NCBI RefSeq assembly: GCF_002954245.1
Contig: NZ_PPTG01000002.1
Coordinates: 54,271 to 118,270, forward strand
Source of the DNA: Cryobacterium aureum
GTDB taxonomy: Bacteria; Actinomycetota; Actinomycetes; Actinomycetales; Microbacteriaceae
Reading direction: 5' to 3'
Length of the DNA stretch: 64,000 bases
Shown here: positions 9,288 through 55,929 of the stretch, piece by piece
Layout: every line of letters begins with the position of its first letter
Position numbering within the stretch: the first letter of the stretch is position 1
The notes under the pieces: model-generated
Told to the model about the DNA's origin: nothing
Seen by the model: the letters and a program-made list of their open reading frames with translations, nothing else
Database searches by the model: none
Translations under genes and position numbers: made by a program

Positions 9288-9479
9288 GCGCAGCTCCTTC
9301 GCTGGGTACTGACCAGATCCGCCCCGCGGGCGTTTCCAGGTGGTCTGCAGCCAATGTAGTCCTGCACGGCTCCCTTGTCATTCTTTTTTCGACACTCGGC
9401 GAAAATAGATCTGCACGCTGGCCGCCGGAACTGGCTAGGATCCGGATAGTAATTGACCGGTCGCGAGTGGAGCGAAAAA

Positions 9480-9698
9480 ATGGATGAGGATGCTCGCCTG
9501 GCCGCTGCCCGCCATGTTCGCAACCGGGTCGCCTGGGCGTCCCTCGCAGCCGCCGCGCTGTTCGCGGTGCTTGGCGTAGTCCTTCGCCAAGGAGCCCTCC
9601 TCGCACTGTCGGCCGCCTGCAGTTCGGCCTACCTGTGGACTCTGCTTCCGGTTCGTAGCTCACCGTCCCAATCGAAGGATGACGCGCATACGCAGTGA
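9480..9698 (+). CDS. Small membrane protein, hypothetical
   Basis: A 72-aa ORF starting at ATG 9480. An in-frame GTG/ATG-type start at 9453 would add nine residues, but AGTGGAGCGA just before 9480 resembles a ribosome-binding site. A charged N-terminus is followed by two hydrophobic stretches (WASLAAAALFAVLGVVL and ALLALSAACSSAYLWTLL) and a short polar tail. It is divergent from the AraC gene. No family recognised. Confidence 0.5.
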   Translation: MDEDARLAAARHVRNRVAWASLAAAALFAVLGVVLRQGALLALSAACSSAYLWTLLPVRSSPSQSKDDAHTQ

Positions 9699-36792: not shown

Positions 36793-36860
36793 TGCCAACA
36801 TAGGTTTCTGTCGTCGTGCACCCGAAGCACGATGCATCGATCACGCGGGGAGAAGTGCCC

Positions 36861-38351
36861 ATGGAACTGAAACGACTGGTCCGAATACTCCGGAAGCGAT
36901 GGATTCTCATTGTTGCTTTCGCCCTGCTCGGCGTGGTCGGTGGATCGGCAGCCGCGCTCATCACACCCGTGCAATACCAAGCCTCTACCCGCGTGTTCGT
37001 GGCCGCCCAAATTCAAAACGGCTCGACGCCCGGTGATCTCGTGCAGGGCAACAACTTCGTCGTGCAGAAGCTGCCGTACTATCTCGACGTCGCCACGAGT
37101 CCCCGCGTGCTGGATCCGGTGATCGGAAGCCTCGGCCTCGATGAGACCGCAGTCGACCTGGCCGAGCGGGTCACGGCCACGACCCAACCCGGCTCGGCCG
37201 TTATTGAACTCAAAGCGCTTGCCTCCACAGCGCCTGCTGCCCAGCAGCTCGCGCAGGCCGTCTCGGAGAGTTTCACCGACGTCGTCATCAACCAGCTGGA
37301 GAAGCCCGCCGACGGCGGTGCCAGCCCGGTCACGGTCGGTGTGCTCGACCCCGCCGTCGCCCCCGACAACCCCGCGCTGCCGCAGCTCTATCTCAACCTG
37401 GCCGTCGGACTGCTCATCGGGCTTCTGGTCGGACTGGTGACCGCGCTCATCCTCGGGCTGCTCGACCGTCGCATCTACAACCGTGACGACATCGAGCGAC
37501 TCACCGTCGTTCCCGTGCTCGGCGGTATCCCGCTTGAAGCCCGCGCCAACCCGATCATCTCGCCCGACGGCGCGTCCACCGCCCGCGCTGAGGCGTTCCG
37601 GGTGCTGCGCACCAACCTCGAGTTCGCCGACGCCGACACCGGCCGTCGCAGCCTCGTCGTGACGTCCTCCGTTTCGGGCGAGGGTAAAACGACCACACTC
37701 GTGAACCTCGCCATCGTGTTGGCCGAGAGCGGTGCGACCGTCGCCGTGATCGACGCCGACCTGCGCACGCCGCGGCTAGCCGACTACCTCGGTCTCGACG
37801 CCGATCGTGGCCTGACCGATGTTCTGATCGGCGACGTGCAACTCAAGGAATCCCTGCAATCGTGGGGCACGCAGCATCCGCTCACCGTCTTGTCGTCGGG
37901 CAAGATTCCCAGCAATCCGAGCGAACTGCTCGGATCGACCGCCATGGGCACGGTGCTCGACGTGCTCAGCAGCAGCTACGACTACGTGCTCATCGACGCG
38001 CCGTCGGTGCTCGCGGTGACCGACGCTGCTGTGCTCAGCCGCTGGACCGGCGGCACCATTCTGGTCGTCGGCGCGAACCGGGTGCGCGAACCCGAACTGC
38101 TCGCCGCCTTCGACGCCCTCGAAGCGGTCGGCACGACGCCCCTCGGCGTTGTGCTGGCCATGGCTCCCACCCGCGGGCCCGACGCGCTCTTGCAGGGCGG
38201 CGGCTTCGCGGCGGCTTCCCGCCCGGCACCCCGTGCCACCCCAGCGAGCGACGCGAAGACGAGCGACGCGAAGATGAGCGACGCGAGTCGTTCGACCCCG
38301 CCCGACAGTGAGTCTGCCCCATCAGAGACCCCCACCCGCGTCACCTGGTAG
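36861..38351 (+). CDS. Polysaccharide chain-length regulator/BY-kinase (Wzc-like)
   Basis: A 496-aa membrane protein. N-terminal Wzz domain with TM helices near 14-35 and 175-198. The cytosolic ATPase has Walker A SGEGKTTT (Lys276), Walker A' VIDADLR (about 297) and Walker B VLIDAP (about 376). It controls polymer length and export. The usual C-terminal tyrosine cluster is missing: the last 80 or so residues contain no Tyr and instead have a repeated Ser-Asp-Ala tract (SDAKTSDAKMSDAS). Start at ATG 36861 with GGGGAG upstream. First gene of the rightward EPS operon. Confidence 0.9.
   Translation: MELKRLVRILRKRWILIVAFALLGVVGGSAAALITPVQYQASTRVFVAAQIQNGSTPGDLVQGNNFVVQKLPYYLDVATSPRVLDPVIGSLGLDETAVDLAERVTATTQPGSAVIELKALASTAPAAQQLAQAVSESFTDVVINQLEKPADGGASPVTVGVLDPAVAPDNPALPQLYLNLAVGLLIGLLVGLVTALILGLLDRRIYNRDDIERLTVVPVLGGIPLEARANPIISPDGASTARAEAFRVLRTNLEFADADTGRRSLVVTSSVSGEGKTTTLVNLAIVLAESGATVAVIDADLRTPRLADYLGLDADRGLTDVLIGDVQLKESLQSWGTQHPLTVLSSGKIPSNPSELLGSTAMGTVLDVLSSSYDYVLIDAPSVLAVTDAAVLSRWTGGTILVVGANRVREPELLAAFDALEAVGTTPLGVVLAMAPTRGPDALLQGGGFAAASRPAPRATPASDAKTSDAKMSDASRSTPPDSESAPSETPTRVTW
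38263..38306 (+). repeat. 15-bp in-frame tandem repeat in the BY-kinase tail
   Basis: About three copies of AGCGACGCGAAGACG (with variants), encoding Ser-Asp-Ala-Lys-Thr/Met. Prone to copy-number change without loss of frame. Confidence 0.7.
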
Positions 38352-38452: not shown

Positions 38453-39439
38453 GTGTCCGTGCACTCGTCTGACCCGGTCGATTCGTCGCCCTCCCAGCAA
38501 CGAAAACTTCTGCTCGTGGCCTCTACCGGCGGGCATCTGGCCCAGTTGGTTCGGCTGGCCCCGGGGCTGGGCGCCTCGCCCAGCTCGCTCTGGGTCACCT
38601 TTGATTCCATGCAGAGCCGGTCGTTGTTGGCCGGCCAGCGGCGCATCCATGTGCCGTACGTGCGTCCCCGCGACTACCTCGGCATGATGCGCGCGGCCAG
38701 CATCGTTCGCCGTGTACTCAAGCACGAAACGTTTGAGGGGGCAGTGAGCACCGGCGCCGGTCTTGCCGTCGCGGCACTGCCGCAGGCCGCGATCAGCGGC
38801 GTGCCGAGCCTCTACATCGAGAGCGTCTCCCGCGTCGATGGGCCATCGCTCAGCGGGCGGATGCTCGCCGCCAGCCACCTGGTCAGCGTGCGCACCCAGC
38901 ATCCTGCCTGGGCCACCAACCGGTGGCGAACGCACCCGAGCGTGCTGTCCACGTACCATTCGTTGATCCGGCCGGCGCCGGAATGCCCCAGCCTGTTCGT
39001 CACCCTCGGCACCATCGAGGGTTACCGCTTCGATTCCCTCGTCGACGCCGTGCTGGCAAGCGGCCTGGCCGATGAGCGCACCGTCTGGCAGCTCGGTTTC
39101 ACCACCAACCGCACCGATCTTCCCGGCCAGGTACGCCAGATGATGCCGACCGCACAGTTCGTCGATGCCGCCCTGACAGCCGACGTCGTGATCACCCACG
39201 CCGGTGTTGGTACCTTCATGGGACTGCTCGAACTGGGCATTTTTCCGGTGATCGTGACCCGCCGCAAGCACCGCGGTGAACACGTCGATGACCACCAGAT
39301 GCAGATCGCGGAGCTTGCCGAATACCTCGGTGTCGCCAGGGCCGTTGACTCGCCCGACCTCACGGCCGAAGTCATCCGCTTCGCTGCCGGCCGTGCCATC
39401 GACACCGGCGTGCGCGTTCCGCTGCCCAGCGACCGATGA
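38453..39439 (+). CDS. Glycosyltransferase, Alg14/Alg13-like (PssD/PssE type) in one chain
   Basis: A 328-aa protein. The N-terminal half (from KLLLVASTGGHLAQLVRLAP) looks like the Alg14/EpsE acceptor part. The C-terminal half (LFVTLGTIEGYRFDSLVD; VITHAGVGTFMGLLE; RRKHRGEHVDDHQMQIAELA) is the GT28 nucleotide-sugar part. Together they add a sugar to an undecaprenyl-linked intermediate on the cytosolic side. GTG start with AAGGGAG five nt upstream. Its stop overlaps the next start. Confidence 0.85.
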   Translation: MSVHSSDPVDSSPSQQRKLLLVASTGGHLAQLVRLAPGLGASPSSLWVTFDSMQSRSLLAGQRRIHVPYVRPRDYLGMMRAASIVRRVLKHETFEGAVSTGAGLAVAALPQAAISGVPSLYIESVSRVDGPSLSGRMLAASHLVSVRTQHPAWATNRWRTHPSVLSTYHSLIRPAPECPSLFVTLGTIEGYRFDSLVDAVLASGLADERTVWQLGFTTNRTDLPGQVRQMMPTAQFVDAALTADVVITHAGVGTFMGLLELGIFPVIVTRRKHRGEHVDDHQMQIAELAEYLGVARAVDSPDLTAEVIRFAAGRAIDTGVRVPLPSDR

Positions 39440-40551
39440 TCCAGGGGTTGTCTCCCGAGCGGATGCAGCGCGACATCTTCGTGCCGGCCCGCGGCCAATA
39501 CGACAATATCGGTGACATCCTGCTGCGCCGCCAATTGCTCGACTGGTTGCGGGCGAGCGGCCCGCTGCACGTCTATGTCGGCGAGGCGCCCGACGGATAT
39601 GCCGAGGGGCTCGGCCTCACACCGGGCGACGTGCAGTATCGCTCCTTTCGCCGGTGGTATGCCGCAGCGCTGGCCAGTGCGGTCCGCGGCCACGCCTCGT
39701 ACGTGTTCAAACCCGGCGAGATTCAACTGACCCTGATCGGCATGAAGGAGCACCTCGCCATGCTTCCGGTGCTCGCACTCGTGCGCGCTCGACATGGCCG
39801 CGTCGCCCGGGTCGGGGTAGGCAGCCGCAACTTCGCGCCGCTTCCGCGAGCATTGATGGGGCCGTCCATCGCACTGTCGAACGTGTCGTTGTGGCGGGAT
39901 GCAGCGACCGCCGGATATCTCGGGCAGGGCAGCATCATGCCCGACCTCGCCTTCGCCGGGGCGAGCAGCGCCGCCGGTTCAGCCGCCGCCGATTTGGGCA
40001 GCACGGCGCGCCGCGACGTGCTCGTCGTGTCGATGCGCTCCGACCTGGAGTACCCGAGCGCGGCTTGGCTCGCCGGGGTACGCGCCGTCGCGGCCGACAA
40101 CGGGCTGCAGATCTGGTGTGTCACCCAGGTGTTGCGCGATGATGACAAGTGCGGACAACTCGCTACCGACCTCGGCGGCGAGGCGCTGCGCTGGAACGGC
40201 ACCGGCCACGACGAGCAGGAACAGCGCCTGCGTTCCCTGTACGGGCGGGCCGCGCTCACTGTGAGTGATCGACTGCACGTGCTCGTCGGCGCCCTCACCG
40301 AGGGGGCGGTTCCGGCCGCGCTTCTGGTCGACGCCAAGTCTGACAAGATTGCTCGGCATTTCGCCGCCGCCGGACTGCACGACGTGAGCATTGTCAGCGC
40401 GGGCCTGTCTGCCGCCGAGATCGCCGCACGGCTGCAGAATCTGCTTGGCCGTCGCACGGCTATTCTGGCCGGCCTGGCCGAGGCCCAAGACGAATTACAG
40501 ACCGTGCGCCGCCTGCTGGACCAGGTGCTCACCACCGAGAGTTTTCAGTGA
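39436..40551 (+). CDS. Polysaccharide pyruvyltransferase family protein
   Basis: A 371-aa protein with the family's opening (ARGQYDNIGDILLRRQLLDWL) and late HxG-type region (DRLHVLVGALTEGAVPAALLV). It probably transfers pyruvate from PEP to a sugar, making a ketal. It resembles the gene at 48173 (shared NIGD.LLRR and WRDA segments). Start ATG overlaps the previous stop (ATGA). Confidence 0.85.
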   Translation: MIQGLSPERMQRDIFVPARGQYDNIGDILLRRQLLDWLRASGPLHVYVGEAPDGYAEGLGLTPGDVQYRSFRRWYAAALASAVRGHASYVFKPGEIQLTLIGMKEHLAMLPVLALVRARHGRVARVGVGSRNFAPLPRALMGPSIALSNVSLWRDAATAGYLGQGSIMPDLAFAGASSAAGSAAADLGSTARRDVLVVSMRSDLEYPSAAWLAGVRAVAADNGLQIWCVTQVLRDDDKCGQLATDLGGEALRWNGTGHDEQEQRLRSLYGRAALTVSDRLHVLVGALTEGAVPAALLVDAKSDKIARHFAAAGLHDVSIVSAGLSAAEIAARLQNLLGRRTAILAGLAEAQDELQTVRRLLDQVLTTESFQ

Positions 40552-41729: not shown

Positions 41730-43640
41730 AATGCAGGCCTGGTTCGAGAAGCCGGAACCGGCAGTCGTTACGGTGTTCGAGCAGTAGACCTTGGTGCCGC
41801 TGGCACCCTTGGTGCCCTGCTCGTGGATGAAGAAACCGTAGCCGGCGGCGCCGACCGGGGTGGTGTTGCCGAAGAAGACGTTGCGGAGGCCCCAGCCGGC
41901 GACGCTTCCGTTGACTGCGAAGCCGTGCACGGTGCTGTTCTTGCCCTGGTTGTTGTAGATCTGCCAGTCGTTGCCCTTGACTTTGACCCATTCCTCGGCC
42001 CGCGGCATGGCGTTGGCTCCGTCGATGACGTTGTCGCGGATGATGCCGTTGGAGGTGCCTTCCTTGACCTCGATCGGCTGGGCGCCGGTGAGGCTGATGT
42101 TGTTGGCCATGAGCAGCGTGCGGTCGGTCTTGTCGGGCTGGCAGTTGGTCTGGGCGCACCAGTTGGCGTCTGAGGTTCCGATGTAGATGCCCTCGCCGTA
42201 GAACGGATCGCGCTTGCCGGTGTTCTTGATGGTGTTGCCGACCACCTTGCTGTCGGTGGTGAAGGCACGCAGGTGAATGCCCTCGTAGCCGATGTTGTCG
42301 ACGAGCGTGTCAGCAATCGTGACGTTGCTGCTGCGGATGACGCTGATGCCCTTGAGACTGTTCGTGACGGTCATACCGGCGACAATGAGGTTGGACGAGT
42401 TGGTGATCTGAATGCCGTGGTTGTCCTGGATACTGCCGACGTTGATCACTGCACTTCGCGGTCCGCAAACCCAGATCGGGTTGGACGCGGTTCCGTTGAC
42501 GGTCATGTTGATCTGCTCGTTGTAGGTACCGGGGGCGAGCTTGATAACGGTTCCGGGCTGGGCCTGGGCTACGGCGGCCATGAGTTCCCCGGCCGTGGCC
42601 ACGTTCACGGTGGCAGCGGGGCAGTCAACGTAGCGGTGGGTGCTGATCGGAGCCGGGGTTGGCGCGGTGCTCGGCACGGCCGACACAATGAACGCGTCGA
42701 CGATGCTGTTGGTACCGGTGGACCGGGCATCCTTCTGGCCGGTGCGGGTCACCGTGATGGTGTGAGTTCCCGCCGAGAGGCTCGTGGTGCTGAACGCGTT
42801 CTGCTTGTACGCGGTGGTCGCCGAGTAGCCGTTGACCGTGGCGACGTTCTTGCCGTCGATCGCGACGGTGCTCGTGCCAGAGCTGCTGGTCAGACGGGTG
42901 ATAAAGGCGACGCTCGAGCCCTGAAAGGTGAACGAGGCGCTGCCCGCCGTAGTGGTGAACTGAACTCCGCCGCCCGAGTCGTTGACCGAGCCGGAGGTGC
43001 GCCAGGTGCCGCTGTACTTGACTGACGCCGAGTTGCTGTCGAAGGTGGTCGTGCCGACCGGAGCCTGCACGGGAGCCGTGGTGGCGACCGGGGCCGGGGT
43101 GGGCTCAGGAGCCGGTGTCGTCGTCGTCGTGCCGGCCGGAGTCAGAGTCACGAAGGCGTCGACGATGCTGCTGGTACCGGCGGAACGCGCATCCTTCTGG
43201 CCGGTGCGGCTGACCTTGATGGTGTGTGTTCCGCTGGAGAGGTTCGAAGTGCTGAACAGGCTCTGCTGGTACTGCGTCGAGGCCGAATAGCCGTTGACCG
43301 TGGCGACGACCTTGCCGTCGATGGCAATGTCGCTGGTACCCGACCTGCTGGTCATACGCGTCACGTAAGCCACGGTCGACCCGGTGAAGGTGAGTGAGGC
43401 GCTCGACGTGGCCCCGGCATACTTGATCGACGCGCCGTGGTCAGACGGCGAGCCCGTCGTGAGCCAGGTGCCGGAGTATTTGACCTGCGAGGAGCTGCTG
43501 TCGACCACCGTGGTGCCGGCGGGCGCCGTGGCGGCGGAGGCCGAAGCAACGCCGACGGGAATCATCGCGGTGAGGGGAACCAGCGCGGCTATGGCGACGG
43601 CGGCGATGGTCGCACGGCGTGAGAAGCGGGGGAACAACAT
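41724..43640 (-). CDS. Secreted right-handed beta-helix protein with two N-terminal sandwich modules
   Basis: A 638-aa exported protein; signal peptide to about residue 37 (ASASA). Two homologous modules (about 45-165 and 195-320) share SVKYSGTW, AFITRLTSSSGTS, IDGK.VATVNGYSA and SRTGQKDARS, resembling carbohydrate-binding sandwich domains. The rest is a parallel beta-helix (IQITNSSNLIVAGMTVTNSL; GIHLRAFTTDSKVVGNTI; ANNISLTGAQPIEVKEGTS), the fold of polysaccharide lyases and epimerases. Start ATG with GGAAGG upstream. It probably acts on a polysaccharide outside the cell; catalytic residues not identified. Confidence 0.8.
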   Translation of the reverse strand: MLFPRFSRRATIAAVAIAALVPLTAMIPVGVASASAATAPAGTTVVDSSSSQVKYSGTWLTTGSPSDHGASIKYAGATSSASLTFTGSTVAYVTRMTSRSGTSDIAIDGKVVATVNGYSASTQYQQSLFSTSNLSSGTHTIKVSRTGQKDARSAGTSSIVDAFVTLTPAGTTTTTPAPEPTPAPVATTAPVQAPVGTTTFDSNSASVKYSGTWRTSGSVNDSGGGVQFTTTAGSASFTFQGSSVAFITRLTSSSGTSTVAIDGKNVATVNGYSATTAYKQNAFSTTSLSAGTHTITVTRTGQKDARSTGTNSIVDAFIVSAVPSTAPTPAPISTHRYVDCPAATVNVATAGELMAAVAQAQPGTVIKLAPGTYNEQINMTVNGTASNPIWVCGPRSAVINVGSIQDNHGIQITNSSNLIVAGMTVTNSLKGISVIRSSNVTIADTLVDNIGYEGIHLRAFTTDSKVVGNTIKNTGKRDPFYGEGIYIGTSDANWCAQTNCQPDKTDRTLLMANNISLTGAQPIEVKEGTSNGIIRDNVIDGANAMPRAEEWVKVKGNDWQIYNNQGKNSTVHGFAVNGSVAGWGLRNVFFGNTTPVGAAGYGFFIHEQGTKGASGTKVYCSNTVTTAGSGFSNQACIS

Positions 43641-44218: not shown

Positions 44219-45781
44219 CTACGGCGTGCAGGTGATGTTGGAGATGCCCTGGGTAGCCCGGGTGACCGAGTTCGAGCACGACACGTCGGTGTCGCTCGAC
44301 CCCTTGCGGCCCTTCTCGTGGATGAAGAAGGCGTAGCCGCCGGCGTTCACCGCCCCCGAGTTGTCGGTGAAGGTGTTGCGCAGTCCCCAGCCGTCGACGC
44401 TGCCGTTGACCGCGAAGCCGTGCAGCGGGCTGTTGGAACCCCGGTTGCCGTCGATGGTCCAGTCGTTCCCTTTGACCTTGACCCACTCCTTGGCATCGCT
44501 CATGGCATTGGCGCCGTCGATCACGTTGTCACGAATGACGCCGCCTGACGTACCCTCCTTGACCTCGATCGGCTGGGCGCCGGTGAGGCTGATGCGGTTG
44601 GAGAGCACGCGCGTGCCATCGGTGCGATCGGGCTTGCAGTCGGTCTGGGCGCACCAGTTGTTCTCCGACGTGCCGATGTAGATGCCCTCGCCGAAGGGTG
44701 CATCGCGCATACCGGTGTTCGAAATGGTGTTGCCGACGACCGTACTGTCGGTCGTGAAGGCGCGCAGGTGGATGCCTTCGTAGCCGATGTGATCGATGCG
44801 GGTGTCGGCGATGGTCACGTTTGTGCCGCTGATCACGCTGATGCCCTTGAGACTGTTGGTCACGGTCATGCCGGCGATCACGAGGTTGGACGAGTTCTTG
44901 ATCTGGATACCGTGGTTGTCCTGGATATCGCCGACGTTGATCACGGCGTCACGTGAGCCGCAGACCCAGATCGGGTTGGAGGCCGTTCCATTGGCGTGCA
45001 TGTCGATCTGGCGGCGATAGGTGCCGGGGGCCATTCTGATGACGGTGCCGGGCCCCGCACGGTCGACGGCCGCCATGAGTTCGTCGGCAGTGTGTACCGT
45101 CGTCGTCGCGGAGGGGCAGTCGGCGTAGCGGTGCACTCCGGTCGACGGCGCGAGCGCGGGTACGGGGGCAGGCGCAGGGGCGGGGTCCGGAGCCGGGGCC
45201 ACGCTGGTCGTGGCGTTCACGACGAACGCATCGACGATGCTGTTGGTGCCGCTTGAACGGGCATCCTTCTTGCCGGTACGGCTGACCTTGATCGTGTGGC
45301 TGCCGCTCGACAGCGTACTCGTGCTGAACGCTGTCTTCTGGTGCACTGTTCTGGCGGAGTATGCGTTCACCGTTGCGACGACCTTGCCGTCGATCGAGAC
45401 GGTGCTTTTTCCCGAGCTCTGGGTGGTGCGGGTGATGAAGGCGACACTGGTTCCCGTGAACGTCATCGATGCGCTGCCGGCGCTGAACTGAAACCGTACG
45501 GAGCCACCCCGGTCGGCGGCATTGCGGGTGCTGCGCCAGGAGCCGCTGTAGGTGATCTTGGCCGAGGAGCTGTCGATGACGGTTCGCGCCGGCCCGGATG
45601 CGGCGGCCTCGATGCCCGGGTTGGGGACGGCCATCGGAGCCAGAATAGCCACGGTCACCGCAGTGGAGGCGGCGACGGCAATTAGGGCGTGGCGGGCGGA
45701 TGTTCGCGTGCGGGGGAGCGGGCGGGAAGGCTGCGTGAGATCAGCGCGTTTGCGGAGGAGACTGTTGCGAAAAACGGGCAC
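44219..45781 (-). CDS. Secreted beta-helix protein, paralog with one sandwich module
   Basis: A 520-aa paralog of the protein at 41724: one N-terminal module (DSSSAKITYSGSW; AFITRTTQSSGKS; SRTGKKDARSSGTNSIVDAF) and a closely similar beta-helix (GIQIKNSSNLVIAGMTVTNS; GYEGIHLRAFTTDSTVVGNT). The N-terminal extension is long and basic before the export helix (ALIAVAASTAVTVAILAP). GTG start at 45781, supported by CGGAGGA 6-7 nt upstream. Same family inference as its neighbour. Confidence 0.8.
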   Translation of the reverse strand: MPVFRNSLLRKRADLTQPSRPLPRTRTSARHALIAVAASTAVTVAILAPMAVPNPGIEAAASGPARTVIDSSSAKITYSGSWRSTRNAADRGGSVRFQFSAGSASMTFTGTSVAFITRTTQSSGKSTVSIDGKVVATVNAYSARTVHQKTAFSTSTLSSGSHTIKVSRTGKKDARSSGTNSIVDAFVVNATTSVAPAPDPAPAPAPVPALAPSTGVHRYADCPSATTTVHTADELMAAVDRAGPGTVIRMAPGTYRRQIDMHANGTASNPIWVCGSRDAVINVGDIQDNHGIQIKNSSNLVIAGMTVTNSLKGISVISGTNVTIADTRIDHIGYEGIHLRAFTTDSTVVGNTISNTGMRDAPFGEGIYIGTSENNWCAQTDCKPDRTDGTRVLSNRISLTGAQPIEVKEGTSGGVIRDNVIDGANAMSDAKEWVKVKGNDWTIDGNRGSNSPLHGFAVNGSVDGWGLRNTFTDNSGAVNAGGYAFFIHEKGRKGSSDTDVSCSNSVTRATQGISNITCTP

Positions 45782-47126: not shown

Positions 47127-48176
47127 TCAGGCCGCACCCTGCGCGGCGGCCAGACGCAGCACCCGGCGGTGCAGCGGCACGCTCACCTTCGCCGAGCCGG
47201 CCAGCGCCAGACGCTTCCAATCGCGACGACGCGCAGCGAGCAGCACCAGGCGCCAGGTGAGTCGGGAGCGCAGCTCGGCGACGATCTCGTCGCGTTCGTC
47301 GGCGTCGTACGGGCCGTTCAGGGCGTCTTTCAGCCCGGAGAGCAGCACGTAGCGCAGTCGAAAGTAGCCGTACGAGTTCGATCCGATGATGCGGGTGTCG
47401 AGGGTGATCGCCACCGTGGTGACAGCCTGCTCCACCAGCAGCAGCGACTCAGCCCGGCGCGACCCCGAGCGGACGATGGACCCGCCGCGCACGACATAGG
47501 AATAGAGCACATCGCTAATGACGGCCACGTGAGTGGCGGCGGCGAGCAGCTGAGCGACCATCGCCAGGTCGGAGTGCACCCGGGCCGGGGTGAACTCGAT
47601 CTCGCGCGTGAGCTCCCGGCGGAACAGCTTGTTCCACAGATGACCGGTGAGCTCGCCGTCGAGCAGCATTCCAAAAGCCTCGGCGCCGGTGATCGGACCG
47701 TTCAACAGGGGCGCAGCCAACGGACGCCGCTGCCCGGGATAGACGTATTCGGCGCCGCAGACGATCACGTCGGCACCGGTCGACCGCGCCGCCGCCACGA
47801 GTTTCTCGAGCGCCGACACCGCCCAGTCGTCATCGCAATCGACGAACCACAGAAATTCACCCCGGCTCTCAGCCACCGCGCGGGCTCGTGCCCGGGCGAC
47901 TCCGCCGTTCTGCTCCTGCCGAAAATACGAAACGTTCGCGGCCGCGGCCGCGGCCCGCGCGCCGATTGCGGCCGTCGCATCCGTTGAGCCGTCGTCGACC
48001 ACGATGATCTCGACCGACTCCGGGGATGCGCCGAGCGTCTGCTGCAACAGTCGATCGATGGCGCCTTGCAGAAAATCCGCCGCGTTGTAGGCCGGAACGA
48101 TGACGCTCACGACCGGATGCCGGCTCGTGCCAGTGCTGCCCTCCTCCGGCCGCCCGGCGGCATGCGCCCCATTCAC
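47127..48176 (-). CDS. Glycosyltransferase family 2
   Basis: A 349-aa GT-A enzyme: VSVIVPAYNAADFLQGAIDR, IIVVDDGSTDAT and FVDCDDDW (the DXD-like site), plus a C-terminal region of unknown role. It probably adds a sugar to the EPS repeat unit. GTG start overlapping the stop of the pyruvyltransferase upstream (GTGA). Last gene of the leftward arm. Confidence 0.88.
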   Translation of the reverse strand: MNGAHAAGRPEEGSTGTSRHPVVSVIVPAYNAADFLQGAIDRLLQQTLGASPESVEIIVVDDGSTDATAAIGARAAAAAANVSYFRQEQNGGVARARARAVAESRGEFLWFVDCDDDWAVSALEKLVAAARSTGADVIVCGAEYVYPGQRRPLAAPLLNGPITGAEAFGMLLDGELTGHLWNKLFRRELTREIEFTPARVHSDLAMVAQLLAAATHVAVISDVLYSYVVRGGSIVRSGSRRAESLLLVEQAVTTVAITLDTRIIGSNSYGYFRLRYVLLSGLKDALNGPYDADERDEIVAELRSRLTWRLVLLAARRRDWKRLALAGSAKVSVPLHRRVLRLAAAQGAA

Positions 48177-49222
48177 GCGGTGAGCTTTCGAATGCTGTCG
48201 GTCAGCTCCCGCAACGACGCACGGGCCTCGACGACGTGGCGCAGAATCGGCTCGCGGCGGCTGATCACGTCGCGGGCCCGGCGCTCGAGCGCTGCCGGGT
48301 CGAGCAGCGTCCAGCCGATCGTGGCGCCCCTGATGCCGACCGCGTCGAGGGTGCGGGCCGCCTTCGACGGCCCCGCGTCAGCGATCACGAGCGGCAGTGC
48401 GCCCTCAGTCAGCCCGATCACGGCGGCATGCAGGCGGTCACTCACCACGAGCATCGACCGCTGGTACACGCCGCGCAGGCGAAGCTCCTGCGCGGCATGG
48501 TCCGGGCCGTCCCAGACCAGGGCCGTACCCCCGAGCGAGACCGCGAGTTCTTCGGCGAGGGGCCCGTCGCGTTCAATCTGCGACACGGTCACGATCTCGA
48601 GTCCGAGAGTGTCGGCCAAACCCCGCAGTGCCGCCAGCCAGGCCTCGTCGGGGCGTCGCCCGTTGTACCGCACCGAGACAGCGAGCAGCGGGCGATCCGC
48701 GGTGGACGCGAGCAGGTGGGCATCCGCGGCTCCCGTGGCGAAGGCCCAGTCGGGAGCGATACGGCCGAGCCCCATCGCCGAGCGGCTGTAGGCGTCGCGC
48801 CAGGCCACCAGGTCGCAGAGGCGCAGCGTCGCCGCCACCGGAATGCGCCAGCCCGTCTTCTGCCGCACTCCGAACCCGGCGTGCACGGCATGCCCGCCGC
48901 GCAGCCGGTTGAGCGCGAGGTGCGGCGCAAGTCGCAGGTAGCGCAGGGCGTAGGCGCGTTGCAGCTCCATTTCACCGGCATTGAAGGCATAAACGGATGC
49001 CTCCCGCAGCGTCGACCGCGAAATTTCGCGTCGCCACTCGGCACTCGTGCGGAACACCCGATCTTCGTCCTGCAGGCCGAGCCCGCTCAGGTACGAGTCC
49101 GATCGGGCGCCGACGAACACCTGCAGTTCGCCGGCCCCGCGCAGGGCATCGAGAAAGGCCCGCCGCAGCACGGTGTCGCCGATATTGTCGACCTGGCCCA
49201 TAGCCGAGGCGAAGATTCTCAT
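48173..49222 (-). CDS. Polysaccharide pyruvyltransferase family protein
   Basis: A 349-aa protein with AMGQVDNIGDTVLRRAFLDAL at the start and DRLHAAVIGLTEGALPLVIAD late, like the gene at 39436. It probably adds a pyruvate ketal to an EPS sugar, at a different position or residue from the other copies. It is linked by 4-bp overlaps to both neighbours. Confidence 0.85.
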   Translation of the reverse strand: MRIFASAMGQVDNIGDTVLRRAFLDALRGAGELQVFVGARSDSYLSGLGLQDEDRVFRTSAEWRREISRSTLREASVYAFNAGEMELQRAYALRYLRLAPHLALNRLRGGHAVHAGFGVRQKTGWRIPVAATLRLCDLVAWRDAYSRSAMGLGRIAPDWAFATGAADAHLLASTADRPLLAVSVRYNGRRPDEAWLAALRGLADTLGLEIVTVSQIERDGPLAEELAVSLGGTALVWDGPDHAAQELRLRGVYQRSMLVVSDRLHAAVIGLTEGALPLVIADAGPSKAARTLDAVGIRGATIGWTLLDPAALERRARDVISRREPILRHVVEARASLRELTDSIRKLTA

Positions 49223-50454
49223 GTGCGCTCCACGACCCGCAGCAGCACCCGTTCCAGGTCGGAGCCGCTGGCCTCTTCCGAGAAGCGGGCCAACCAGGGT
49301 TCGATGTTGTCGAGCGGTAGCTCGGCCGCCCGCAGGATGGCGTCGGCAAGGTCGACCGGATGCGCGGACAGCGCGAGTTCCCCCGTGATTCCGGGCACAA
49401 TCGCATCCGCTACCCCGAGCGCCCCCGAAACGGCGACCGCCGGATATCCGGCCGCTGCGGCCTCGACCAGCACATTGCCGAAGCCCTCCCGGCTCGAGGT
49501 GAGCAGGGCCACCGCGTTGTCGCCGAAGTGGTCGAACCAGTTCTCCACCCAGCCACGGTGGTGAAAGACCACGTTCTCCTGCCGGGCCGCGGCCTGGACG
49601 TCGCCCAGCAGCGGGCCGCCGCCGAACGAGACGACCTCGACGAGCACGCCGCGGCGGGCGAGCTCGGCGGCGGCCGCGATGGCGAGCAGCGGCCGCTTCT
49701 GCGCCACCAGCCGGCAGGCCAACACGATCTGAATCCCGTTGGCCGATCCGGGGCGACGTCGGGGCGGCGCGACGATGGTGGTGGCGCCGGCATCGATGGA
49801 TTCCATGCCGATCAGCTCCCCACCCACCTGGGCGCGCGCGCCCGTCGTACCCTGACCCCGCGGGGTGCCGCGCAGCTTCGCCGTCGCCGGGTTGGCGACG
49901 ACGGTGATGCGGTCGCCGCGCACCCCGAAAGCCGCCACCATCTCAGCGGCGACCGGATGCGAAATGGCGATCACGTGGTCGGCCCACCGATACAGGCGCT
50001 TGGCGAACCAGATCTTCACCCGGTGGGCCAGAGACGAACCGGGCAGTCCGAGCGACACCAGGTTGCGCTCGCTCACCAGCACGCGCGGCCGCAGTCGCAC
50101 CGGAATCAGGTGGGCCGCCGTCAGCAGCACCAGGTTGGGGTGCGCCTGCAGGGAGATCGCCACGTCGGGCTGCCAGTCGAGCAGGCGGCGGCGCAGTGCG
50201 GCGGCCTTGTGCAGATGTCCGTGCTGGGCCGAGAGGGATGAGGCTGCAACCCCGTCGGGCAGGTATTCCGGATTCACCTCGGCGGCGGTGAGTACGACAC
50301 TCACTTCATAGCCCTGATCGGCGAGCCACCCCATCCAGGTGCGGGCCACAAATTCTGCCCCGCCACCGTGCAGTGACGGTATGACAAAGAGGATGCGGCG
50401 CAAGGCTGGGTGCCCGCGCGCATCGTCGGACGGGGTCTGCGAGGAGAGTGTCAT
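49219..50454 (-). CDS. Glycosyltransferase family 4
   Basis: A 411-aa GT-B enzyme with ILFVIPSLHGGGAEFVARTW, then HVIAISHPVAAEMVAAFGV and the donor domain IVLACRLVAQKRPLLAIAAA, LTSSREGFGNVLVEAAAAGYP. Start at ATG 50454, which overlaps the stop of the flippase fusion; the open frame upstream is antisense coding. Confidence 0.88.
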   Translation of the reverse strand: MTLSSQTPSDDARGHPALRRILFVIPSLHGGGAEFVARTWMGWLADQGYEVSVVLTAAEVNPEYLPDGVAASSLSAQHGHLHKAAALRRRLLDWQPDVAISLQAHPNLVLLTAAHLIPVRLRPRVLVSERNLVSLGLPGSSLAHRVKIWFAKRLYRWADHVIAISHPVAAEMVAAFGVRGDRITVVANPATAKLRGTPRGQGTTGARAQVGGELIGMESIDAGATTIVAPPRRRPGSANGIQIVLACRLVAQKRPLLAIAAAAELARRGVLVEVVSFGGGPLLGDVQAAARQENVVFHHRGWVENWFDHFGDNAVALLTSSREGFGNVLVEAAAAGYPAVAVSGALGVADAIVPGITGELALSAHPVDLADAILRAAELPLDNIEPWLARFSEEASGSDLERVLLRVVERT

Positions 50455-53375
50455 GCGGGGCCTTGTCTGTGGGGAGTCGGGCTCAGGGCAGGGGAATGGG
50501 GACGCTGTGCACTCGGCAATCCCGAGAAGTTCAGGGCGGCCAAGCGCTGTACCTCGGGTAGCCGCGCGGCGAGACGGTCGCGGTAGCTCGCCCGGTTGGC
50601 CAGCACTGCAAGGGCCACCGGAATCATGCGGTCGGCCAGGCCGACGCCCGGTTCGACGCACAGCTCCTGGGTGTCAAAGAGACGCATCATGCCGGCGACC
50701 TTGCCCTGGGTTGACAGGGCCACGGCCGGCACCTCGTGGAACATGGCCTGCACGGCCAGGTGCATGCGACCGGTCAGCACGATTTCGGCGCCGGCACACA
50801 GCCCGCGCACATCGGCCGGGCTGAGCAGCCGGTTCACCAGGACGACCCGGGAATCCGCCCCTTCAGCCTCGGCCACGCGGTCGAACACCGCCCGGCAGGC
50901 GGCCGCATCGTCGCCGCTGGTGCGCACAACGTGCGGCAGTAGTACCACCCGGAGCCCGTCCTCTAACAGCGCGGTGACAATTCGGGCGTACTCCGTGGTC
51001 TGGTCGAACCGGCGGCCGACCAGCGCGCTCGCGTTTACGACGGCGTAGCGGGCTGGCGTCGCCCCGAGATATTCCCTTACGGCCAGGCCGGAACTCGTTC
51101 GGGCGGCGAACACGGCGTCGGCGACATCCACCACGTTCTCGAAACGATCGGCGCGGGCGCGCTCGCCGGAGACCGGGTCGCGTAGCTGCAACCGCGTTCC
51201 CATCCGGCCGGCCCGGGCGAGCGACCGGCGCACCCCCACATTGGCGTGGCCGTTCCAGCTGAAGCCGAGAATGCGCGCTTCGACGCCCACGCTGCGCGCC
51301 AGGCTGGCAACATCCGCTCGCCGCGAGGAGGCGCGCACGCTGTAGGCGCCGTCCATGATGTCGGCGCCGATCACGGTCAGTGACAGGGCTCTGTAAAGTA
51401 CCGGAGCCAGCGAAGCCATGGCCTGGCGGTGCACCCGCCCAGTGCCGTAGACCAGGTGTGGAATCGGCACGAGCTGAGCCCGCCAGGCGTGCTGCGTGGG
51501 GATCCGCACGTCGGCCGGCCGACGCACGAGCACCTGCACCGGCCCATCCACGTTTTCGAGAAAAGTCTCGACCATGGCCTGATCGCCGATATTGCCCTCG
51601 CCGGGCGGGGCGACGAGCACGTGCGAACGCTGGGCGCGCGCATCGAGCGGGCGCAGCTGGTTTATTGCGCGTCGAAGCGCGCCGCGATCGCGCAGGTAGG
51701 GCAGAGCGGATGCCGCGGCCAAGCCGTGGACGACCCGGTCCAACCGGCGGATGATGCGCCGCCGGGTGCGGCCGGCCGTGCGGGTACGCGCGGGGGTGCG
51801 GGCGGGGGACAGCTGGTCGGAATCGGTGTTCGTGTCGGTATCAACGGTCGGGCTGCCCGATTTCGACGACCGTGCGGAGCGCAGAAAGCTGCGGGCTTGA
51901 GTGATCGAGCGCACATCTCGGCGAAAAATCGGCCAAATCAGCATGACGACGCCGATCGCGGCGAGCAGCGCGACCCCGCCGACGGCGACGCGAGCGAACG
52001 AAAGTTCAATCGGAATCCACTGCACGGCGGCCCAACTGACGCCGGTGGCGAAACCGTAGCCGAGAATGGCGCGCACGCCGGCCAGGAACATGGCGCGCGC
52101 CGGCGCATCCGTTACCCGGCTGATCCACGCGAGGCCGATCGGCCAGATCAGCGCGACACCGATCGAATACCCGGCGGCGACGCCGTAGACGCCCCAGAGC
52201 GAGCCGACCAGCACGAATGCCACGAGCAACGGCCGGGTGGTGAGGGCGAAATACAGGTTCTGTTTGGTGGCACCCTTTGACAGAAAAACCCAGTAGGTCG
52301 CATAGGCAGCGGCTTCGAAGAACCCGGCAATGGCGAGAATCTGAAAGATCGGTGCGGAGCCCAGCCACCGACTACCGAGGGCGATGCTGATGATTGGCAG
52401 GGCTTGGGCGCAGGAGAAGGCGAGCACGATGGTGACCGCGTGCAGCATGATGGTCTGCCCGAGCAGAATGAACCGGTCGTACTTGGGCGGGTCGTCCTGC
52501 AGCCTGGCCAACACCGGCAGGGCCACCCTGGTGGATGGACCGTTGATCTGGTTGAGCGGCAGTAGCAGCAGCTGGAAGGCCCTGTTGTAGAGGCCGAGCG
52601 GGCCGGCGCCGAGGGTGGCACCGATCACGATCGTGTCGGTGTTGCGACTGGCGTAGCCGAGCAACTGCGTGCCAGCCAGGTTCGACCCGAATACGATCAG
52701 GTGGCGCATGGGCGCGGCGCGGTGATACCAGCCGGGAAACCAGTTGGTGACCGGAATGAGAATGATGATGGTGAGAATGCCCTGGCTGATCTGCTGCCCG
52801 GCGAGAGCCCAGTAGCCGAAGCCGTTCAGTGCCATCACGATACCGACGAAGAGGCCGCCGACCTGCGCGCCGATCTCCGACCCGGCGAGGGCCACGAAGT
52901 GAAAGTTGCGGTTGAGGTCCGCTCGAAACTGGGTGGCCAGGCCGTTCAGCAGAAATGTTCCGGCGAGCACCTGGCTGAGCAGCACGAGCCGATCGTCGCC
53001 ATACAGGGTGGCGATGAGCGGGCTGAGCAACATCGCGAGCAGCATGAGCGCAAGCCCGATCACGCTGTTGATCCAGAACAGGTTGTCTTTCTGGTGCTGG
53101 CTCAGGTCGCGCACTTGAATGGCGGCCGACGACAGCCCGAAGTTGCGCAGCACCTCACCGACGCCGATGATCGCCGCGACCGAGGCGACCAGGCCGTAGT
53201 CGCTCGGGTCGAGCAGGCGCCCAAGCACGACGATGCCGCCGAGCTGCACGCCGATACGAATGAGCTGGCCGACCAGGGTGGTCGATGCTCCGCGCCCGGC
53301 GGTGCGGCCGAGTCCTGCGGTCGAGCGGGGTTTCTCCGGAACGTTGGGGGTTCCCGGCTGAATCGTCGCGGTCAA
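50451..53375 (-). CDS. Wzx-like polysaccharide flippase fused to a pyruvyltransferase domain
   Basis: A 974-aa two-domain protein. Residues 1 to about 490 are a MATE/PST-type flippase with 12-14 helices (VVLGRLLDPSDYGLVASVAA; GYASRNTDTIVIGATLGAG). A Ser/Thr/Arg/Pro-rich linker (about 490-560) leads to a polysaccharide-pyruvyltransferase domain (VLVAPPGEGNIGDQAMVETF; IVLTGRMHLAVQAMFHEVPA). The start is TTG at 53375, overlapping the previous stop, with GGCGGAG upstream. No stop or frameshift separates the domains. It would couple decoration with translocation of the lipid-linked unit. Confidence 0.85.
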   Translation of the reverse strand: MTATIQPGTPNVPEKPRSTAGLGRTAGRGASTTLVGQLIRIGVQLGGIVVLGRLLDPSDYGLVASVAAIIGVGEVLRNFGLSSAAIQVRDLSQHQKDNLFWINSVIGLALMLLAMLLSPLIATLYGDDRLVLLSQVLAGTFLLNGLATQFRADLNRNFHFVALAGSEIGAQVGGLFVGIVMALNGFGYWALAGQQISQGILTIIILIPVTNWFPGWYHRAAPMRHLIVFGSNLAGTQLLGYASRNTDTIVIGATLGAGPLGLYNRAFQLLLLPLNQINGPSTRVALPVLARLQDDPPKYDRFILLGQTIMLHAVTIVLAFSCAQALPIISIALGSRWLGSAPIFQILAIAGFFEAAAYATYWVFLSKGATKQNLYFALTTRPLLVAFVLVGSLWGVYGVAAGYSIGVALIWPIGLAWISRVTDAPARAMFLAGVRAILGYGFATGVSWAAVQWIPIELSFARVAVGGVALLAAIGVVMLIWPIFRRDVRSITQARSFLRSARSSKSGSPTVDTDTNTDSDQLSPARTPARTRTAGRTRRRIIRRLDRVVHGLAAASALPYLRDRGALRRAINQLRPLDARAQRSHVLVAPPGEGNIGDQAMVETFLENVDGPVQVLVRRPADVRIPTQHAWRAQLVPIPHLVYGTGRVHRQAMASLAPVLYRALSLTVIGADIMDGAYSVRASSRRADVASLARSVGVEARILGFSWNGHANVGVRRSLARAGRMGTRLQLRDPVSGERARADRFENVVDVADAVFAARTSSGLAVREYLGATPARYAVVNASALVGRRFDQTTEYARIVTALLEDGLRVVLLPHVVRTSGDDAAACRAVFDRVAEAEGADSRVVLVNRLLSPADVRGLCAGAEIVLTGRMHLAVQAMFHEVPAVALSTQGKVAGMMRLFDTQELCVEPGVGLADRMIPVALAVLANRASYRDRLAARLPEVQRLAALNFSGLPSAQRPHSPALSPTPHRQGPA

Positions 53376-54403
53376 CGGATGCTCCGCCCGGCGGTGCGCC
53401 CGGTTAGTTGCAGGGCCCGCAGGTAGGTGTGATAGCTCTGCAGGCCGAGCGTTTTCCAGTCGCGCCCGGAGAGTTGCGGGCGCGGGCGCGGGCCGGCTGC
53501 GCGCATCCGCTCGAGGGTGCCCAGTAGAATCTCTGGCGTGAGCTCGCCCTCATAGAGGTAGATCCAGTCGGGGCCGACTTCCTCGGCCAGGGCCAGGTTC
53601 GACGCCGTCGACGGCACGAGCACCGGGCGATCGAGCGACAGCGCTACGAGCAGCACACCCGAGTTGTGCATTTCGCGGTAGGGCAGCACGACCAGCTCGG
53701 CCCCACCGACCTCGACCACCAATTCTTCGTCGGAGACGAAACGCAGCACCGAGCTGATGCGCGCATCGCGGGCGGCTTGCGTGCTGATGATCTCACCGAG
53801 CCCGCTCGAGGGCCGACCCACAATGCGCAGCGCGAGGTCCGGGTCGGGTAGGGCCCGGAACACCTGAAGCAGCGTTTCAACGCCCTTGTACGGGCGGATC
53901 AAACCGAAATAGAGGATGCGCCCCTGCACCGGGTCGGGCAGCGGCATGCTCCTGAAACGGTCGCGATAATGACCGTGCAAAATGGTGACCGCCCGAGACT
54001 CCGGTTCGACCGGTGTGGTCGGGTTGAGCCGGATGATGAGGGCCGTGCGGGCATCGAGCGCGTCGAGCGCGCGGGTTTCGGCGTCGTGACCGGCTTCGTG
54101 CGGGGTCAGGTTGTGCGCGGTGCGCACGATCGGAATGCGCTGCAGCCTGGCGCGCAGCAGCAGTGCATACAGCGCACCGCGGCGGAGCCGGGCCTTCAGC
54201 GGCCTCGGCGCGCGAATGAGCAGCTCCGGCCAGTGCACGTGAAAAACGTCATAGCGGCCGAGCAGCGCGGTGCGCCAGGAGAAGAATCGCATGGTCACCG
54301 CATCGGGTGCGCCCTCGACGACCTGGTTGACGTACCGGGTGCTGCCGTCGGGCGGACTCAGTGATTGCAAGACTGTCAGGTTTACTTTAATCGCGGTCAT
54401 CAT
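53372..54403 (-). CDS. Glycosyltransferase (GT-B, GT4-like)
   Basis: A 343-aa enzyme: GRYDVFHVHWPELLIR, IPIVRTAHNLTPHEAG, GRILYFGLIRPYKGVETLLQ and LVVLPYREMHNSGVLLVALS. The start was set at ATG 54403 (GGGGA 6 nt upstream) rather than 54409. It overlaps the flippase fusion by 4 bp. Confidence 0.85.
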   Translation of the reverse strand: MMTAIKVNLTVLQSLSPPDGSTRYVNQVVEGAPDAVTMRFFSWRTALLGRYDVFHVHWPELLIRAPRPLKARLRRGALYALLLRARLQRIPIVRTAHNLTPHEAGHDAETRALDALDARTALIIRLNPTTPVEPESRAVTILHGHYRDRFRSMPLPDPVQGRILYFGLIRPYKGVETLLQVFRALPDPDLALRIVGRPSSGLGEIISTQAARDARISSVLRFVSDEELVVEVGGAELVVLPYREMHNSGVLLVALSLDRPVLVPSTASNLALAEEVGPDWIYLYEGELTPEILLGTLERMRAAGPRPRPQLSGRDWKTLGLQSYHTYLRALQLTGRTAGRSIR

Positions 54404-54489
54404 GCCCATTCCCCTTGCGGGCCGGTGAAACGGATCGGCTCAAACGTGAGAATCTGTCGGTTTAGCGTAGCGTGCGGGTGGCTCGAGCG

Positions 54490-55929
54490 TCAGAGCTGCG
54501 CATACCCCCGTTTGGGGTGTACGAAAGCCCGTCGCGTAGTGGGCGCGCGGCCGGGCTCGAGCGGGCCGGCGGCATCCGCTCGGGTGGGGTTCAACGCCAG
54601 AATCAGCAGCAGGCCGAGCAGCAGGTGCATCGGTCGCAGGGCGTCGATAGCGTTGAAACCGGCGATGCAGATCGTGTACGCCACCAGGGCTGCGGCCGCG
54701 CCGACCGCCCGGCGGGACAACGCGTGCGCGATGGCCGAGCCGATCATGAGCAGGAACAGCACCAGGCCGGGCAGCCCGATGCTGATGAGCAGCTGCAGCA
54801 GCGAGTTCTCGATGGTGACCTCGTTGAACAGGCGCCCGGTGATGCCAGAGGTGCCAGGGCCCGAGCCGATCCAGCCGGCGAGGTTCGCTGCCTGCACCGA
54901 CACCCACACGCCGAGATCGCGGGCCTGTGAAGACAGTTCGGCTTCGACGGAGTTGTTGCGGGCGGTGAAGGCGTCGAACTGGAACAATCCCACCACCGCG
55001 ATGACAAAGAGCCCGGCCAGCAGCGCGAATTTGCCCCAGCGCTTTTCGCCGCGCAGCATGAGGGCTGCCGCGTAGGCGAAACCGATGGCGATGGCAGCGG
55101 CGAGAATCGCCCCGCGCGAGACGGTGGCGACCAGGCCGAGGCCGCTGAAGACGGCGGCGGCGAGGGCGGGCTTGGAGTTCTCCCGAAGCCAGACGCCAAT
55201 GGCCAGGGCGCAGGCGACGGAAAAAAACAGGGCGGCGAAGAGCGGATGCCCGAATGACGCGTCGGCCCGATACACCGACCAGTGCTGGTGGTCGGTCAGC
55301 CCGAGCACCGAGAACAGGCTGCCCCAGATCGGGTTGAAGCGCAAAACACCTTCGACAACCGCGTAGGCGCCGAGCCAGGCGCCGAGCAGCAGCCAGGTTC
55401 GACGAATCCAGTACGCCTCCCGGGTGCTGGTTCCGATGCACAGCGGCAGCAACACGGCGGCACTGAAGCTGATCATCCAGCCCAGGCTCGCCTGCAGGTC
55501 GGTGGTCCGCGCAAGGGTGAACAGCGTCCAGACCAGAAACAGCAGGGCGAAGTAGCGGGTGGCTGACCGGAAGCGGGCCGGCGGGGTCGCGGGGCCGGCA
55601 TCCGTTTTCGTCGGTAGCAGGCGTCTTATGGCCCAGATGACGATGATCATGGTGGTTAGCGGCAGAGCGCCGATCGGGCCGTCCTGCGGCAGGATGCGCG
55701 CCGGAACCAGCGCGAAGGTCACGAGCGCGACGGCCGGCAGGATGTGCGCCGGCAGCAGGAACAAGGTGACGACGGCGGCAAAGGCGAGCAGGGTGAGCGG
55801 AATCAGAATGATGCCAACGGTGGTGATGAATCGTGGCAGCACCACGCTCGCCACAATGACGAACAGGGCGGCGAACACGACCAGAACGACCGGCGTGCTG
55901 CGCAATCGGCGCAGAGTGGAATCGAACAT
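54490..55929 (-). CDS. O-antigen ligase/polymerase (Wzy-like) membrane protein
   Basis: A 479-aa protein with about 11-12 hydrophobic segments, a large periplasmic-type loop (about 240-330) and the GIGSTREAYWIRR/LRFNPIWGSLF/DHQHWSVYRADASFGHP region typical of the Wzy/WaaL superfamily. It probably polymerises repeat units outside the membrane. It precedes the GT genes in the leftward arm. Confidence 0.85.
   Translation of the reverse strand: MFDSTLRRLRSTPVVLVVFAALFVIVASVVLPRFITTVGIILIPLTLLAFAAVVTLFLLPAHILPAVALVTFALVPARILPQDGPIGALPLTTMIIVIWAIRRLLPTKTDAGPATPPARFRSATRYFALLFLVWTLFTLARTTDLQASLGWMISFSAAVLLPLCIGTSTREAYWIRRTWLLLGAWLGAYAVVEGVLRFNPIWGSLFSVLGLTDHQHWSVYRADASFGHPLFAALFFSVACALAIGVWLRENSKPALAAAVFSGLGLVATVSRGAILAAAIAIGFAYAAALMLRGEKRWGKFALLAGLFVIAVVGLFQFDAFTARNNSVEAELSSQARDLGVWVSVQAANLAGWIGSGPGTSGITGRLFNEVTIENSLLQLLISIGLPGLVLFLLMIGSAIAHALSRRAVGAAAALVAYTICIAGFNAIDALRPMHLLLGLLLILALNPTRADAAGPLEPGRAPTTRRAFVHPKRGYAQL

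Follow-up and report, generated by a model that had tools for sequence, protein, structure and literature searches.

A flippase and pyruvyl transferase fusion in Cryobacterium aureum

The 64,000-nucleotide stretch of Cryobacterium aureum DNA analyzed here (contig NZ_PPTG01000002.1), referred to throughout as the window, carries a gene in which a Wzx-type flippase and a polysaccharide pyruvyl transferase are encoded as one protein. A single open reading frame (ORF) of 974 amino acids (aa), starting with TTG, spans positions 50451-53375 exactly on the minus strand, and plus-strand frame 1 across the same interval is interrupted by stops. The preliminary description of this DNA, made from the letters alone, had reported the joined domains and the intact frame without stating the strand, and both domains were recovered with Pfam. 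The flippase part matches Polysacc_synt_3 (PF13440; residues 50-341, E value 2.6e-71, 240.7 bits against a cut-off of 23) and Polysacc_synt (PF01943; residues 27-293, 8.7e-44, 150.4 bits against 28.2), and the C-terminal part matches PS_pyruv_trans (PF04230; residues 732-889, 1.3e-11, 45.3 bits against 25.3). Among NCBIfam models, the best for the flippase part is PRK10459 (NF007773), a multidrug/oligosaccharidyl-lipid/polysaccharide (MOP) flippase model which we take to be that of WzxC; its score of 195.5 bits lies under the equivalog cut-off of 273. For the transferase part, the best model is CsaB (TIGR03609; 36.3 bits, under the equivalog cut-off of 213.1), and the WcaK model (TIGR04006) scores 19.0 bits, under its equivalog cut-off of 727.1. 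Elsewhere in the genome PF13440 is matched just once more, weakly (30.3 bits against a cut-off of 23) and on a different contig, so the fusion constitutes the genome's one strong Wzx of the PF13440 kind. The closest named relatives of this genome are C. flavum and strain PH31-L1, with 93% identity in the best segment.

Frame integrity and selection

The fusion was sought in 57 Cryobacterium genomes (that of the window included), 299 genomes sampled from the family Microbacteriaceae and 394 sampled from the class; the family and class scans scored three and two candidates per genome, respectively, so that their counts are lower bounds. In 16 of the 57 Cryobacterium genomes, again including that of the window, the fusion is intact in one frame, and these 16 separate assemblies all remain in frame through 51780-51880, the interval singled out in the preliminary description as the place for a missed frameshift. 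The DNA alignment of the highly variable linker across the 16 fused genes contains 47 gaps, each of 3, 6, 12 or 18 bases; because the linker slices were cut in frame, it is the lengths of single gaps, and not their sum, that provide a free test. Within the same gene set, the flippase has a median ratio of nonsynonymous to synonymous substitution rates (dN/dS) of 0.086 and the transferase core one of 0.147; the values are higher in linker residues 491-545 (0.383), the first helix of the transferase (0.315) and the C-terminal tail (0.317). The flippase and the transferase show a strong third-position bias, which is only slight in the linker, whose variable sites fall at codon positions 1, 2 and 3 in 36, 29 and 44 cases (47 codons).

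An artefact, in which two genes look joined because a stop or frameshift within the linker went unnoticed, would be in keeping with the separate genes kept by two Cryobacterium metagenome-assembled genomes (MAGs) and by other relatives with adjacent genes. Sixteen assemblies nonetheless agree in frame, the single linker gaps are multiples of 3, and the codon-level constraint is evident as third-position bias in both domains, even if slight in the hypervariable linker. This explanation was rejected as vanishingly improbable: to the extent that this can be judged from assemblies, an assembly error is ruled out, because 16 genomes are intact and dN/dS is low in both parts, and the fusion is real.

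Production of the transferase by itself from an internal start was also considered. No in-frame start codon common to at least 10 of the 16 genes was found between residues 491 and 585; the earliest such codon after residue 490 is the GTG at 586 (11/16), followed by ATG601 (16/16), which already lies within the GNIGDQAM motif. In view of the lack of such a widely shared start codon between 491 and 585, a separate transferase product is probably not made in this way.

Operon and polysaccharide locus

Transcription on the minus strand proceeds through genes for an acyltransferase, a DUF218 protein, a Wzy-like protein, a glycosyltransferase-like protein, the fusion, a GT4 glycosyltransferase, a second PF04230 protein, a GT2 glycosyltransferase and a beta-helix protein (Table 1). 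Both neighbours overlap the fusion by 4 bp, as had been noted at the outset: the upstream glycosyltransferase-like gene ends at 53372 and 50454 can serve as the start (MTLSSQ) of the downstream GT4 gene. These tight junctions recur in all 16 fused Cryobacterium genes, with NTGA at the start and ATGA at the end; the start codon is TTG in 14, GTG in one and ATG in one, always followed by A and overlapping the upstream TGA. The plus strand nearby encodes a Wzz/AAA chain-length protein, glycosyltransferases and a third PF04230-like protein, and the whole is interpreted as a surface polysaccharide locus of the Wzx/Wzy type. It is apparently unusual for a single polysaccharide locus to contain three PF04230-type proteins. 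Two beta-helix proteins with CE2_N-like modules (41724-43640 and 44219-45781, both minus strand) are candidate polysaccharide-modifying or polysaccharide-binding proteins of the locus, and an ORF near it (30758-32971, plus strand) combines acyltransferase-3 and SGNH domains, an architecture described in the Pfam entry itself.

Table 1. Positions of the fusion gene, its parts and residues, and surrounding genes in the window, followed by single-stop junctions in other loci.
Feature	Position	Strand	Basis or remark
Fusion gene, Wzx-type flippase and PF04230 pyruvyl transferase	50451..53375	-	974 aa, TTG start
Flippase part, residues 27-485, MurJ/WzxE fold, ~14 transmembrane helices in model	51921..53297	-	Pfam PF13440/PF01943, AlphaFold2, VIA-align
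Linker, predicted disordered, hypervariable, residues 498-539	51759..51884	-	Predicted local distance difference test (pLDDT) <50; in-frame indels across 16 species; dN/dS
Pyruvyl transferase part, residues 580-955, GT-B-like fold	50511..51638	-	PF04230, AlphaFold2, VIA-align
Arg732, RDP motif	51180..51182	-	28/28 transferase rows; probably equivalent to CsaB R148
Arg870-Met-His872	50760..50768	-	Spacing as CsaB R306/H308
Lys892, 20 residues past His872	50700..50702	-	Spacing as CsaB K328
Glycosyltransferase-like gene, upstream, 4-bp overlap	53372..54409	-	Glyco_trans_1_4 26.8 bits, just under cut-off 27
GT4 glycosyltransferase, downstream, 4-bp ATGA overlap	49219..50454	-	Pfam
Second, separate PF04230 protein of the operon	48173..49222	-	26.1 bits, cut-off 25.3
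GT2 glycosyltransferase	47127..48176	-	Pfam
Wzy-like polymerase/ligase	54490..55929	-	Wzy_C 28.6 bits, below cut-off 31.7
Wzz/AAA chain-length regulator-kinase-like protein	36816..38351	+	Same locus
Third PF04230-like protein	39436..40551	+	20.0 bits, below cut-off 25.3
Single-stop junction, Halopseudomonas	L050 about 9489-9528		
Single-stop junction, Pseudomonas	L054 about 9501-9543		
Single-stop junction, Thauera	L060 about 9453-9510		

Fused, separate and rearranged forms

Besides the 16 fused genomes, the Cryobacterium set includes four with adjacent separate genes (G042, G043, G035 and G046) and 13 without any match to the fusion. In the family sample the fusion is present in at least 5 of 299 genomes, comprising four Cryobacterium and one genome of another genus (G251), and adjacent same-strand separate genes occur in at least 9 of 299, one of them (G326) in reverse order; in the class sample the fusion is found in at least 3 of 394 genomes, all Cryobacterium. 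Proteins with the same domain order therefore exist beyond the window and homologs are not always encoded as two genes, and the adjacent separate pairs of relatives bear out the statement that the two activities usually reside in separate genes. The pairing of flippase and transferase is widespread; fusions are rare within the genomes searched. A search of plasmid sequences returned 44 matching records, none covering more than 80% of the query, and no plasmid-borne fusion was seen. Long ORFs around flippases in four further genomes (G551, G311, G574 and G498) were considered as additional fusions and discarded, their surplus being sequence upstream, or a short stretch downstream, that appears to be spurious; inspection of these four by eye showed no further domain.

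Named loci with separate adjacent pairs come from Halopseudomonas, Pseudomonas, Thauera, Rhodococcus and Leifsonia. In the first three, the transferase lies in the frame of the flippase straight after its stop, so that a single stop parts the frames. Gene order also varies, with the transferase placed ahead of the flippase in Pseudoclavibacter (L053 7863-10561) and in G326, and with a glycosyltransferase lying between the two in Microbacterium barkeri (L072 6848-10702).

The fusion in the other Microbacteriaceae genus (G251, locus L083) is one ORF of 988 aa flanked by the same two types of glycosyltransferase, and it is 71% identical to the window's in the flippase and 54% in the transferase. 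The genome also carries a separate flippase-transferase pair elsewhere, and the fusion occurs in one of the six genomes of its genus. Two Cryobacterium MAGs, RYN_54 (G042) and RYN_91 (G043), harbor the orthologous pair as separate genes, with identities of about 70% (flippase) and 62% (transferase). The ten-gene order of RYN_54 is identical to that of the fused species, and RYN_91 agrees up to its contig end. The two genes overlap by 4 bp in both MAGs, as ATGA and GTGA, and the purine-rich GGGGAG and GGAGGA lying a few bases upstream may act as ribosome sites.

Evolutionary history of the fusion

In a tree of the concatenated parts, the 16 Cryobacterium fusions form one clade (support 100/100) whose nearest relatives are RYN_54 and RYN_91, and G251 falls outside the group of RYN and Cryobacterium fusions (91/97). 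Taken at face value, this topology implies either two fusions or one fusion with a later split in the RYN line. A single clade of all 17 fusions was not rejected by the approximately unbiased (AU) test (p 0.189), the tree of the flippase alone requires just one change, with weak support, and the trees carry long-branch warnings. The fusion is probably derived, through one or two events, because the two MAGs retain the orthologous pair with 4-bp overlaps, and that of G251 is possibly an independent event.

An orthologous operon lacking the transferase

The same operon is found in Cryobacterium sp. Y11, where the flippase gene (L049 7983-9659) encodes the flippase, a linker and the last residues of the fusion, with no transferase between them. 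The protein ends in HRQGPT, compared with HRQGPA in the fusions, and its linker contains a run of GGCTAC hexamers. A search of the Y11 draft genome (about 98% complete) did not find the fused transferase, and the same search finds the transferase in three other genomes; two other PF04230 genes are retained in Y11. In the flippase tree, Y11 is sister to the 16 fused species (88/87). The median dN/dS of its flippase against these species is 0.078, and the value among the fused species is 0.087; the Y11 flippase has thus been kept working, under purifying selection, without this transferase. Because relatives possess the transferase and the 3' end of the Y11 gene matches the last bases of the fusions, we infer that Y11 lost it, from either the fused or the separate state; the shared last bases may also be conserved as part of the ribosome site of the next gene.

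Predicted structure and membrane side

An AlphaFold2 model of the whole chain was computed from 41 aligned rows (pLDDT 84.3, predicted TM score (pTM) 0.54). Helices in residues 22-480 are read as 14 transmembrane helices, followed by a helix at 482-502 and a two-lobed domain from residue 580, and pLDDT falls below 50 for residues 498-539, about where the preliminary description had placed a low-complexity linker. Structural comparison with VIA-align superimposed residues 29-423 on WzxE (9g9p; Z 30.9, rmsd 2.8, 393 residues aligned) and residues 24-497 on MurJ (7wax; Z 30.0, rmsd 3.4, 463 aligned), and the helix counts of 14 in the model and 12 by hydropathy fall within the 12-14 of the MOP fold. 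Residues 580-955 resemble GT-B enzymes (Z about 23-24), UDP-GlcNAc 2-epimerases among them (Z about 23), and the transferase modelled alone (pLDDT 89.2) adopts the same GT-B-like fold as in the whole chain; function is not derivable from this shared fold. Both termini of MOP flippases are cytosolic. Given the even number of predicted transmembrane helices and the MurJ/WzxE fold, the membrane side being taken from this established knowledge, the transferase domain should be cytosolic, as the preliminary description had supposed.

Putative active-site residues of the transferase domain

All 28 transferase rows of the alignment have R732, R870, H872 and K892. The R-x-H spacing and the 20-residue step from the histidine to the lysine are those of R306, H308 and K328 in CsaB, and R732 is the putative counterpart of CsaB R148. 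CsaB R148, H308 and K328 are reported to be critical to the binding of phosphoenolpyruvate (PEP) (PMC10435577), and CsaB and WcfO are described as using lipid-linked precursors as acceptors (PMC6030368, PMC6801904). By analogy, the fused domain may pyruvylate a lipid-linked repeat unit in the cytosol beside the exporting flippase, an activity suggested by its family and conserved residues. When a transferase profile was compared with the PDB at E values up to 1, the sole chain retrieved was Pyruvyl transferase 1 (Pvg1p, 5ax7), matched weakly over the R-x-H motif (E 0.15), and 5ax7 is absent among the 50 listed entries of the fold comparison with this domain. Sequence searches of the PDB gave AcrB-type chance matches only for the transferase alone and no matches for the flippase.

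The other two PF04230-type proteins of the locus (48173-49222, minus strand, and 39436-40551, plus strand) share just 18% identity with the fused domain. Both retain the PEP-site arginine and histidine, and the lysine column, as aligned, is a proline in the former.

A proposed role for the tethered transferase and competing explanations

The account we consider likely, taken as a whole, is that of a Wzx/Wzy locus with a cytosolic ketal-pyruvyl transferase tethered to its flippase. The N-terminal part would be a MOP flippase moving a lipid-linked repeat unit, and the C-terminal part would transfer pyruvate from PEP to that lipid-linked repeat before flipping. Ancestrally, two genes overlapping by 4 bp, and probably coupled in translation, would have been brought into one frame by an indel near the overlap, the linker arising from the old flippase tail and the N-terminal stretch of the transferase. 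The tether would then hold the enzyme beside the flippase in a 1:1 ratio, making for efficient pyruvylation of repeats ahead of export, and would not force the flippase to wait. Several points weigh against this account. Plain hydropathy analysis identifies 12 segments in residues 34-481, compared with 14 in the model, leaving 210-301 unresolved (both numbers are even); at a pTM of 0.54 the model does not predict how the two parts are placed relative to each other; PF04230 scores are modest; and proteolysis of the linker is conceivable. Any benefit of the tether would be small or lineage-specific, because the separate state works in sister lineages, and the fusion itself may be neutral. The last of these is the main rival, to which we assign a real but clearly minor chance: the frame separation between two overlapping, co-expressed genes would have been lost and the product tolerated, both proteins acting near the membrane, with nothing gained from the tether. 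A probable ancestral layout with a 4-bp overlap, which a single indel could turn into a fusion, the weakly constrained linker and the restriction of the fusion to one Cryobacterium clade and one genome of another genus are all compatible with neutrality, but the fusion has been maintained in 16 genomes with both parts constrained, and a second, possibly independent, fusion exists in G251.

The preliminary description had instead suggested a checkpoint before flipping, in which the fused transferase gates the flippase and only pyruvylated repeats are exported. The adjacency of the flippase/transferase pair in distant bacteria lends this some appeal, as does TacF, a MOP flippase described as sensing a cargo substituent by monitoring phosphocholine (PMC13385700); in that description, however, TacF itself does the sensing. 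The strongest evidence against an obligatory checkpoint is that the Y11 flippase is constrained in the same operon without this transferase, an argument that covers this transferase only and is not absolute, two other PF04230 genes remaining in Y11. The linker is, moreover, long, predicted to be disordered and hypervariable, and in a sister MAG the same operon works with the two proteins apart. A tether that pyruvylates repeats beside the flippase fits better than such a checkpoint, which we regard as improbable. Comparably improbable is a direct handover, whereby the fused transferase would pass its pyruvylated product into the inward-open flippase and the modification would set the order and rate of export; species with separate genes would then use a docked complex, and Y11 would have broken the link through a changed flippase or its two other PF04230 enzymes. 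Marginally less unlikely, yet still doubtful, is that the C-terminal domain, although belonging to PF04230, serves some other purpose, be it a different transfer reaction or non-catalytic substrate binding. Its scores far under the CsaB and WcaK cut-offs, the two additional PF04230-type proteins of the locus and a fold that by itself resembles many GT-B enzymes leave room for this, but the PEP-site residues considered are kept in every transferase row and the PF04230 score exceeds its cut-off.

Comparison with known systems

There is precedent for both domains, for their pairing and for the pathway. A literature search on flippase-pyruvyl transferase fusions yielded no report among the matches listed, and the words "fusion" and "fused" are absent from the main text of a review of pyruvylation (PMC6801904); the fusion is apparently undescribed so far. 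The same review treats the stage of pyruvate addition as still open for xanthan, and the covalent tie between transferase and Wzx would provide genetic evidence for a pyruvylation step on the cytosolic side, at the flippase, in this lineage. Three states of the orthologous operon are found (fused, separate and with the transferase absent), which makes control of flipping by decoration testable in environmental bacteria, several of them named culture-collection strains. The gene also offers an example of an overlapping gene pair that has probably become a single protein.

The colanic acid cluster of E. coli K-12 has the same type of order, with wzxC followed by wcaK and the glycosyltransferase gene wcaL, but wzxC and wcaK are separate genes with a 275 bp gap, and the Cryobacterium parts score under both equivalog cut-offs. 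CsaB of Paenibacillus alvei, unlike the fused domain, is a stand-alone protein. The fused domain matches PF04230 and, weakly, the CsaB model, far below its cut-off, and reproduces the R306/H308/K328 spacing; the lipid-linked precursor reportedly used by CsaB is also the kind of acceptor proposed for the fused domain. TacF, the teichoic acid gatekeeper flippase, likewise links a MOP flippase to a cargo substituent, but reads that substituent itself, and a fused enzyme is not mentioned in the accessible part of the source (PMC13385700). Wzm-Wzt exporters resemble the fusion in bearing a C-terminal domain on the exporter that handles the glycan end, as described in PMC11759038; the exporter there is an ABC transporter, and the appended domain is a carbohydrate-binding module instead of an enzyme.

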